Shown here: piece by piece, positions 29,983 through 32,550 of the stretch
Numbering within the stretch: the first letter of the stretch is position 1
Layout of the letters: the number at the start of each line of letters is the position of its first letter
Assembly: GCF_900156895.1 (NCBI RefSeq)
Contig: NZ_FTPD01000008.1
Location: 1-64,000 of the forward strand
Direction of reading: 5' to 3'
DNA length: 64,000 bases
DNA from: Mesorhizobium prunaredense
GTDB taxonomy: Bacteria; Pseudomonadota; Alphaproteobacteria; Rhizobiales; Rhizobiaceae
Program-made: the position numbers and the translations under genes
Notes under the pieces: generated by a model
Databases searched by the model: none
The model's input: the letters and a program-made list of their open reading frames with translations, nothing else
Told to the model about the DNA's origin: nothing

Positions 29983-30486
29983 TCAGCCCTTGTCAGTGCC
30001 GATCCAGTGATCGAGCGCAATCCGGCCGGATCCCCACGCCATGATGCCGAGTGCCATCGCCGCCCAGGTGATGTGCAGCGGCCAGCCGTCCGGCACGGTG
30101 AGTTGTATGACCAGCGTCATCACGAGCAGGCCGAATGCCGCCAGTCGTGTCGCCAGGCCGAGAACGAGAAGAATTGGCAGCAGGATTTCCGCCGACCCTG
30201 AGACGAATGCCACCAGCCCAGGTGCAGGAAAATCGTAAGGGCCGCCGGGCAGATGCAGCTTGAGCTCCGAGCTGAAAAGCAGCACGGCCACCTCGTTCAA
30301 CTGCAAAAAACCGTCCCATTTGTTAATGCCGGACCGCCAGAACGGGACAGCGAGCGCGCAGCGCAGGACGAGTTGCGTCAGCGACGGTGTGGCCCTCGTG
30401 CGCAGCGCGGCATTCACCCTCTCCACGAGGGTGGCAGCCCCTTGCGGCTCGGTGCTGGCGTCCCATCCATGGTTCGTCATGCTCAC
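29983..30486 (-). CDS. DoxX-family membrane protein of the bufferin cluster (BufD-like)
   Basis: The 167-residue product has four membrane helices in the DoxX pattern (QLVLRCALAVPFWRSGINKW, FSSELKLHLPGGPYDFPAPG, GSAEILLPILLVLGLATRLAAFGLL, TWAAMALGIMAWGSG). DoxX proteins accompany many DUF2282/DUF692/DUF2063 operons and are thought to help handling or export of the modified peptide; their exact role is not established. It lies five bases after the DUF2063 gene and is the last gene of the cluster. A second in-frame ATG is at 30480. Confidence 0.85.
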   Translation of the reverse strand: MSMTNHGWDASTEPQGAATLVERVNAALRTRATPSLTQLVLRCALAVPFWRSGINKWDGFLQLNEVAVLLFSSELKLHLPGGPYDFPAPGLVAFVSGSAEILLPILLVLGLATRLAAFGLLVMTLVIQLTVPDGWPLHITWAAMALGIMAWGSGRIALDHWIGTDKG

Positions 30487-30491
30487 CCTCC

Positions 30492-31283
30492 CTAGTGTGC
30501 CGCTGTGATGGCGCCTGCTTGCAGCAGGCCGGCAATGTTGGCGGCAAGGTCGAATTCGGCAGTTTCCGCAAATGCTGCCGCGGCCGCCGCGCCGAGCGGC
30601 TCGCCCGCCATGAGACGATCCAGAAAAGCTGCGCCGCCGGGCGGCAGATGGCGAACAAAGACTTCGAGCCCGGGCCGCGTGACCAGCGCATCTTCAGGGC
30701 CGTCCGCCTCGATCCGCCCGACAGGGCGGTCGCGCCGGTTCGCCGCAAAGATCGTCACGACCGGATAGCGCGAGCGAATGGCGCGCGTTGCCGGGTGCGG
30801 CACGAACACGGTATCGGCTAGCCGTTCGGGCGGGATAGCCGCCAGTGCCACGGAAGCCAGCGGTTCCGCGTCGGCGGCATGATAGGCGTCGAGCCAGGCC
30901 CGCTCCAAGCGCGCCACGTCAGCCAGCCATGGCATCGGCCGCGCATAGTCGTAGCGCTCGATGAAGTCGGGAAAGTCGCGGCCGTATTCGAACAGAAGCG
31001 GCGAGGTGGGTGGCGTTTCGCGGACATGGAAGCGCGCCATCGCCCGAAAGAAGTCCGGGCCGGTGATGCGCAGCGTCGCTGGAAAGCTGGCGGCCAGCGC
31101 ATCGATCAGGCTGACCGTGACGTTGTTGCGGTAGACGGCGTATCGTTTGACCGCTGCCTTCCCGTTCGGCCCCGAGACGGCGTCAGGCGGGGCACGGCCA
31201 GGATCGAGCAAACCGGCGGTGAATGCCTCGGCATAGTCGAACCGGTGGCTAAGGTCGCCCGACTGGAGCTCATCCTGCGGCAT
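30492..31283 (-). CDS. DUF2063 MNIO partner protein (BufC/HvfC/GigC-like)
   Basis: This 263-residue protein has the DUF2063 N-terminal domain (FTAGLLDP, then RYAVYRNNVTVSLIDALAASFP, FFRAMARFHV and a PLLFEYGRDFPDFI block) and a C-terminal domain ending in a helical AETAEFDLAANIAGLL region. In bufferin and methanobactin-type systems the partner protein recruits the precursor peptide to the MNIO enzyme. Its start overlaps the DUF692 gene by 14 bases, which indicates translational coupling and supports a two-protein complex. Confidence 0.88.
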   Translation of the reverse strand: MPQDELQSGDLSHRFDYAEAFTAGLLDPGRAPPDAVSGPNGKAAVKRYAVYRNNVTVSLIDALAASFPATLRITGPDFFRAMARFHVRETPPTSPLLFEYGRDFPDFIERYDYARPMPWLADVARLERAWLDAYHAADAEPLASVALAAIPPERLADTVFVPHPATRAIRSRYPVVTIFAANRRDRPVGRIEADGPEDALVTRPGLEVFVRHLPPGGAAFLDRLMAGEPLGAAAAAAFAETAEFDLAANIAGLLQAGAITAAH

Positions 31284-32193
31284 GGGCTTTTCCGAGCAGA
31301 TGGTGGCTGTCGGCGTGATGGTCGAGGATCGCTTGGGCGGCGGCGGCCTCCGCCTTGAGCACCGGCCACTCGGGAATGGCGCTGTCCCACTCGATCAGCG
31401 TCGGCAGCGGTCCGCATCGGCCGATGACGATATCGAAGAGCTTCCAGACCGCGTCGGCGACCGGACCATCATGGCTGTCGATGAGCAGCAGGTCGCCCTC
31501 GTCATCCGCCTGCTCGGCGTGCCCGGCCAGATGGATTTCGCCGACATGCGCGAGCGGGAAATCCGCGAGGTAGGAAAGCGCTGAATAGCCGTGGTTGGTG
31601 GCCGAAACGAAGACATTGTTGACGTCGAGCAGCAGGCCGCAACCGGTGCGCTGCACCAGCGCGCCGATGAAATCTGTCTCGCTCATCGTCGATTCAGCGA
31701 AAAGGACGTAGGTCGAGGGGTTCTCGATCAGGATCGGGCGGCCGATCGTCTCCTGCATTTCATCGATGTGATTCGCCACGCGCGAAACCGTTGCCGGCGT
31801 ATAGGGCAGGGGAAGCAGGTCGTTGTAAAAGGTGGTGTCGTGGGTCGACCAGGCGAGATGCTCGGAAACGAGCGCCGGCTCATAGCGGTCGACGAGCGCC
31901 TTGAAACGGCCGAGATGCACTTTGTCGAGTGGTCGCGGTCCGCCGATCGACATACACACCCCGTGCAGCGAAACGGGAAAATCGCGGCGAATCCTGGCCA
32001 GCGCATCGTGCGGCGGGCCGCCCGCGCCCATGTAGTTTTCGGCGTGGACCTCGAAGAAGCCGTCCTTTGGGCCGTCGCCGAGGATCACGGGTAGATGTTC
32101 ATGCTTGAAACTGGTGCCGGCAAGACCGGCGATCGGGTGTGCCGGAAAGCGCGAGGTTTTCGATATGCGGAATGACGGGGCCAGTCCGTTCAT
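31270..32193 (-). CDS. DUF692 multinuclear non-heme iron oxidase (BufB/HvfB/GigB-like)
   Basis: MNIOs are TIM-barrel enzymes with two or three irons that oxidise cysteines of ribosomal peptides. The 307-residue protein contains the expected ligand-bearing blocks: VHAENYMG, SEHLAWSTHD, ENPSTYV, LLLDVNNVFVSATNHG, HLAGH, DSHDGPV and IEWDSAIP. It sits between the DUF2282 precursor gene and the DUF2063 partner gene, the conserved buf/gig/hvf order. The ATG at 32193 has a GGAG element upstream; ATGs at 32199 and 32223 are alternatives, the latter three bases from the precursor stop. Confidence 0.92.
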   Translation of the reverse strand: MNGLAPSFRISKTSRFPAHPIAGLAGTSFKHEHLPVILGDGPKDGFFEVHAENYMGAGGPPHDALARIRRDFPVSLHGVCMSIGGPRPLDKVHLGRFKALVDRYEPALVSEHLAWSTHDTTFYNDLLPLPYTPATVSRVANHIDEMQETIGRPILIENPSTYVLFAESTMSETDFIGALVQRTGCGLLLDVNNVFVSATNHGYSALSYLADFPLAHVGEIHLAGHAEQADDEGDLLLIDSHDGPVADAVWKLFDIVIGRCGPLPTLIEWDSAIPEWPVLKAEAAAAQAILDHHADSHHLLGKAHAAG

Positions 32194-32226
32194 CTTCATC
32201 TCCGCTTTCCGGGCAGCTTGCATTGC

Positions 32227-32550
32227 TTAGGACGGGATGTCGCGGCTCAGCGCCGTGGGCGAGCCCTTGCGGTCGCCGGGCAGGTCCATCGTTGTGCAGG
32301 TGCCGCCGTCGACGAACTTCCAGGCGTTGCCTTGGTAATCGACCGTCGAGGTGCCTTGGCAGGTGGTGCCAGGTCCTGCCGCGCAGTCGTTCTGCCCCTT
32401 TAGGGCGACGCCAAAGCACTTCTCCTTGCCGGCATCCATCGCCGCCTTGGCTTCTGCCTCGGACAGCGGCGCGGCCGTCGCAAAAGAAGCAAGAGCCGTG
32501 GCAACGGCGCCGGCCAGGAAGGCCGCGCTCACGGTTGATCTTGTTGACAT
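32227..32550 (-). CDS. DUF2282 cysteine-containing RiPP precursor (bufferin, BufA1-like)
   Basis: The 107-residue peptide has a Sec-type signal sequence (cleavage near residue 27, FATAAP), an acidic Ala/Glu/Lys helix and a core with four cysteines at 45 (EKCFGV), 56 (QNDCAAG), 64 (TTCQGT) and 85 (GGTCTTM). That spacing is the DUF2282/bufferin-1 pattern; in studied members the MNIO converts some cysteines to thiooxazole rings that bind copper. An unusual feature of the class is retention of a full signal peptide. A good GGAGG ribosome binding site precedes the ATG. Copper buffering in the periplasm is inferred from the family, not shown here. Confidence 0.9.
   Translation of the reverse strand: MSTRSTVSAAFLAGAVATALASFATAAPLSEAEAKAAMDAGKEKCFGVALKGQNDCAAGPGTTCQGTSTVDYQGNAWKFVDGGTCTTMDLPGDRKGSPTALSRDIPS

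Follow-up and report, generated by a model that had tools for sequence, protein, structure and literature searches.

The minus-strand genes at positions 29983-32550 of the window (the whole stretch of 64,000 nucleotides of Mesorhizobium prunaredense DNA that was analysed) constitute, judged by their family assignments, an ordinary Buf1-type bufferin operon. We consider it quite probable that this operon, which encodes a predicted exported, thiooxazole-containing and copper-binding peptide, forms an arm of an envelope regulon that is likely switched by SigF/NrsF and that likely also comprises a methionine-rich peptide, MsrA and MsrB. What is new here is the likely trans-acting regulator together with a small predicted regulon. 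The features in question are as follows:

29983..30486, minus strand: DoxX membrane protein (167 aa; PF07681)
30492..31283, minus strand: DUF2063 partner protein (263 aa; PF09836)
31270..32223, minus strand: MNIO maturase of the BufB type (317 aa; PF05114, NCBIfam MNIO_BufB)
32227..32550, minus strand: Buf1 (DUF2282) precursor (107 aa; Cys 45, 56, 64 and 85)
32558..32562, minus strand: GGAGG, resembling a ribosome-binding site, before the precursor ATG (read in the sequence)
32608..32633, minus strand: predicted SigF/ECF16-type promoter GTAAC-N17-CGAA (motif scan; spacer conserved in relatives)
32835..33599, plus strand: protein with YscW and META domains (Pfam), a divergent neighbour probably outside the system

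The order of transcription is DUF2282 precursor, MNIO, DUF2063 protein and DoxX protein, with the MNIO and DUF2063 reading frames overlapping by 14 bases (31270-31283). All four products exceed the Pfam cut-offs of their families: the precursor scores 80.8 bits against DUF2282 (PF10048, cut-off 22.4), the MNIO 338.8 against PF05114 (cut-off 25), the DUF2063 protein 86.1 against PF09836 (cut-off 27.2) and the DoxX protein 64.5 against PF07681 (cut-off 23.6). The MNIO also lies above the cut-off of NCBIfam MNIO_BufB (367.7 bits, cut-off 310) and matches the solved MNIO structure 3BWW at 5e-39; its start codon is uncertain, because M. ventifaucium, the nearest relative, aligns from residue 5 only. 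Three further NCBIfam models scored below their cut-offs, namely BufA2 with the precursor (22.4 of 60 bits), HvfC with the DUF2063 protein (44 of 142 bits) and HvfX with DoxX (58.6 of 80 bits). By eye, the precursor N-terminus is hydrophobic with an Ala-rich end and resembles a signal peptide. In profile searches of the 7.0-Mb host genome, MNIO, DUF2282 and NrsF each gave a single match. The preliminary description of this DNA, which had proposed the search against DUF2282 and had read a four-gene minus-strand operon with the above overlap and with precursor cysteines at 45, 56, 64 and 85, proved accurate in each of these respects on re-reading.

How far does this arrangement extend? Analysis covered the best 80 of 558 MNIO relatives, one of which (L040) has no precursor in its locus DNA and was excluded, leaving 79 for the precursor and motif counts. 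The nearest of these best 80 are Mesorhizobium (M. ventifaucium, L022, at 95%, and L023-L025 at 85-89%), and L022-L025 share the moaE and ndk homologues near the operon. Matches to the MNIO also occur on 354 plasmid records, 73 of which are from Escherichia; among the 40 matches listed, rhizobial plasmids predominate. Within the best 80 of 558, the four precursor cysteines are invariant in 80/80 aligned sequences (that of the window and 79 relatives), each of which has exactly four cysteines beyond its first five residues; DUF2063 is present in 80/80 and DoxX in 72/80 of the relatives' loci, and in the MNIO alignment 28 positions with His, Asp, Glu or Asn are conserved in no fewer than 79 of 81 sequences. 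The spacing of the cysteines in relatives had been singled out beforehand as one of two points on which the bufferin call of the preliminary description would stand or fall; its invariance and the matching family models support that call. DUF2282 peptides are defined as Buf1 bufferins, in which modification falls on the central cysteines and a disulfide joins the outer pair; the Caulobacter Buf1 carries thiooxazoles and is reported to chelate copper and to help growth in copper excess (PMC12452194). 5-Thiooxazoles have also been found in related peptides (PMC12668002). In the captophorins (fontiphorin, oxazolin and gonophorin), an MNIO and a partner of the DUF2063 type install them on copper-binding precursors of the Sec type (PMC12668002, PMC12452194); those precursors contain EGKCG repeats, whereas the present one is a DUF2282 peptide with four cysteines. 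By analogy with these characterised relatives, thiooxazole formation, copper binding and export are predicted for the peptide of this strain.

The title of the preliminary description further mentioned a divergent envelope-stress gene. The plus-strand gene is real and encodes the YscW/META protein, and it lies divergent to the operon both in the window and in L023-L025, which might suggest that it is a functional partner and that the locus is a five-gene envelope-stress island. We regard this as very improbable: these three are the only loci of the best 80 of 558 that have the gene beside the operon, it was not found in the other 77/80, including L022, the nearest relative (some of these loci extend only a short way upstream of the MNIO), and no motif points in its direction within the window, where the sole motif lies on the operon strand. 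On these counts YscW/META was rejected as an operon partner, and the title stands as to the gene, not as to its being a conserved partner.

What, then, controls the operon? The preliminary description held this open because it saw no ECF gene adjacent. No ECF or anti-sigma gene indeed adjoins the operon, and the single NrsF match in the host genome lies on another contig, C60; as to the question of regulation, the likely answer is given by a SigF-type motif before the operon and this unlinked sigF-nrsF pair. The motif GTAAC-N17-CGAA occurs once in the window, its start lying 83 bases upstream of the precursor ATG. Taken alone this is weak evidence, as 17 of 100 shuffles of the window also gave a match. 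Among 79 relatives from the best 80 of 558, the exact motif lies 68-85 bases before the precursor start in 53, and the reversed motif in none (0/79). When the spacer was varied from 10 to 24 in the same 79 relatives, 53 loci had N17 and 10 had N16, no locus had N15 or N18, and any other length was seen in at most 4 loci, so that the motif with N16-17 precedes the precursors of 63/79. Although the relatives are kin, so sharp a spacer peak speaks for function. In L024 and L025, the motif before the bufferin operon lacks the leading T.

The NrsF encoded on C60 matches PF06532 with 171.6 bits (cut-off 26.8), and the adjoining sigma gene is of the ECF type, with Sigma70_r2 and r4_2 above cut-off. 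The same GTAAC-N17-CGAA motif is followed 45 bases later by the sigF start; only 1 of 200 shuffles of this 3.6-kb piece gave a match. Two cysteines of NrsF are strongly conserved, Cys 129 in 54/56 and Cys 179 in 56/56 aligned sequences. In 31 of 34 NrsF loci of relatives (best 80 of 558), the motif occurs somewhere within the 2-4 kb examined, in many of these 31 on the NrsF strand and some 600-700 bases upstream of the match to NrsF. Taken together, motif and gene pair suggest that the operon is likely controlled in trans by the unlinked SigF/NrsF (ECF16) pair, with use of the promoter being a prediction.

The co-occurrence of motif and NrsF is consistent with this reading. Within the best 80 of 558, 53/79 loci have no NrsF match in the locus itself; 52 of these 53 genomes were searched for NrsF (27 + 25), and 40 of them have it and 12 do not. 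With loci that have a local NrsF match counted as positive from that match, and with the L077 genome excluded (n = 78), the N16-17 motif is present in 62/66 relatives with NrsF vs 0/12 without, again among the best 80 of 558, and the four NrsF-positive exceptions (L043, L047, L057 and L066) are each one mismatch away at N17. For the 52 genomes without NrsF beside the operon, the corresponding N17 counts are 35/40 vs 0/12 (Fisher p = 3e-8, kinship ignored). On the MNIO tree, the absence of NrsF amounts to 2 changes, leaving 1-2 independent pairs, and the association loses its significance when kinship is taken into account; with so few changes the link does not constitute independent proof, and as phylogenetic proof of that kind it was rejected. 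In 36/79 relatives (best 80 of 558) the exact motif is present and the stretch examined holds no NrsF gene; the regulator would therefore be missed by any survey confined to adjacent genes.

The 12 relatives of the best 80 of 558 in which the genome-wide search matched no NrsF (L044, L050, L073, L082-L088, L096 and L098) keep the operon without the motif, and therefore other regulation is possible. Might the M. prunaredense operon likewise be run by a housekeeping or a copper-specific regulator, the SigF-type site being a relic or a chance match (about 17% for a window of this size) and the msrA/msrB regulon not shared? This appears decidedly unlikely in view of the conserved position and spacer of the motif in relatives (best 80 of 558) and of the homologous S. 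meliloti promoter, which is listed as RpoE7-dependent (PMC6180224). No regulator of the NrsF-less clade was recognised among the ORFs of L044, L083 and L085; in these three, an ORF resembling a small heat-shock protein by eye lies downstream of the operon on the opposite strand.

Control by SigF in trans would likely extend to a small envelope regulon comprising the bufferin operon, a methionine-rich peptide, MsrA and MsrB, as suggested by the distribution of the motif. Exact GTAAC-N17-CGAA sites number 11 in the host genome, fewer than the 45 for the pattern read backwards, which weighs against the regulon. Four of the 11 stand before sigF-nrsF, the bufferin operon, MXKDX-msrA and msrB. On C52 the motif starts 76 bases before the ATG of an MXKDX-like methionine-rich peptide, which is followed by msrA, and on C31 it lies 228 bases before the assumed ATG of msrB. 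MsrA and MsrB are above their NCBI cut-offs (TIGR00401, 171.1 of 108.1; TIGR00357, 163.7 of 113.05), and by eye their N-termini resemble signal peptides; the MXKDX peptide falls short of the cut-off of its model (33.8 of 41). The other 7 of the 11 sites have no such role: six overlap with ORFs of 100 aa or longer, and for two of the six (on C70, and on C82 at 52367) a same-strand ORF also starts within 300 bases; the site on C44 has no such ORF. Sites with N16 were rejected as extra targets in the host genome, with one TGTAAC-N16-CGAA match vs 16 read backwards.

Related genomes show much the same set. All three TGTAAC-type matches of M. ventifaucium, and three of the four in the L023 genome, precede the bufferin operon, msrB and MXKDX-msrA. 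In the L024 genome 3 of 8 matches are at such places, namely before a DoxX-like gene divergent to sigF-nrsF, before msrB, and before an ORF that by eye resembles DUF1223 and precedes MXKDX-msrA; the latter is also the one such place among the 4 matches of the L025 genome. In the L024 and L025 genomes (L153 and L142), this ORF before MXKDX-msrA has a CxxC-type start and stands directly behind the SigF-type motif. In L020 (1900-3402), ORFs that by eye resemble an anti-sigma factor and a fasciclin lie directly upstream of msrB.

The features just described bear a close likeness to the SigF system of Caulobacter. Its SigF motif is GTAACC-N16-CGAA (PMC3511200), the motif here being the same minus its sixth base, and its regulon contains two bufferin operons, CC3254-CC3257 and CC2907-CC2905, of the same families (DUF2282, DUF692, DUF2063 and DoxX), one of them away from sigF. 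Promoter type, an NrsF with two conserved cysteines and regulon membership of a methionine sulfoxide reductase are likewise shared (PMC3511200, PMC8224329). Changes of NrsF C131 and C181, the counterparts of Cys 129 and 179, raise the Caulobacter regulon without stress (PMC3511200); the regulon is copper-induced, and a sigF mutant is copper-sensitive and grows poorly in copper (PMC8224329). Distant SigF control and pairing with Msr being already known from Caulobacter, the novelty of the present arrangement is limited. It differs in having a single bufferin operon, which does not share a contig with sigF-nrsF, and in its reductases: whereas Caulobacter SigF controls MsrPQ (PMC8224329), M. prunaredense has an MXKDX-like peptide and exported-looking MsrA and MsrB, and no MsrP above cut-off was found in the host genome (best 99.6 of 207). 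MsrA and MsrB may therefore stand in for MsrPQ.

A close counterpart in rhizobia is the RpoE7/EcfR7 system of Sinorhizobium meliloti 1021 with the operon SMb20530-SMb20527 on pSymB. The precursor there is 83% and the MNIO 79% identical, and the motif is placed 81 bases ahead of the precursor (83 in the window), with the same letters as a promoter given as RpoE7-dependent (PMC6180224). In S. meliloti, by contrast, sigF and nrsF adjoin the operon as divergent neighbours. ECF16 sigma and anti-sigma pairs have also been described from Bradyrhizobium japonicum (EcfF/OsrA, responding to H2O2; PMC3420878) and Brucella (BcrS/AbcS, responding to hypochlorite; PMC8315932). Both govern methionine sulfoxide reductases from this promoter type, and in Brucella an MXKDX peptide is included as well. 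The terms DUF692 and DUF2282 are absent from the main text of both papers, so that neither names a bufferin in these terms.

The course of events in M. prunaredense would be the following. Copper or an oxidant would act on NrsF by way of its two conserved cysteines, and SigF, set free, would read GTAAC-N17-CGAA ahead of the bufferin operon, sigF itself, MXKDX-msrA and msrB. The MNIO and its DUF2063 partner would convert the two central cysteines of the precursor, and the peptide, exported through Sec, would bind copper in the periplasm while MsrA and MsrB would repair methionine sulfoxide. Two observations speak against a simple role of copper: S. meliloti RpoE7 fusions gave no response to H2O2, Cd or chromate, and in C. 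metallidurans the gig cluster was without effect on copper resistance (as related in PMC8224329).

Might the modified peptide instead serve mainly against oxidants such as hypochlorite and peroxide, or against another metal, with copper binding as a side effect? In favour are the predicted co-regulation with MXKDX, MsrA and MsrB, the hypochlorite and H2O2 responses of Brucella BcrS and Bradyrhizobium EcfF, and the response of Caulobacter SigF to chromium and cadmium (PMC3511200). Against it stand the copper chelation reported for Caulobacter Buf1 and its benefit to growth in copper excess (PMC12452194), and we consider this alternative unlikely. A more far-reaching reading, somewhat less likely than not, is that in this Mesorhizobium clade a single unlinked SigF/NrsF pair runs a full methionine guard of the envelope: the bufferin would take away the copper that drives oxidation, the MXKDX peptide would be sacrificed, and exported MsrA and MsrB would do the repair in place of MsrPQ. 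The bufferin would in that case act in oxidation control no less than in metal detoxification. The predicted regulon links a copper-binding RiPP to the repair of methionine sulfoxide in rhizobia, under a sigma factor that need not adjoin its target.
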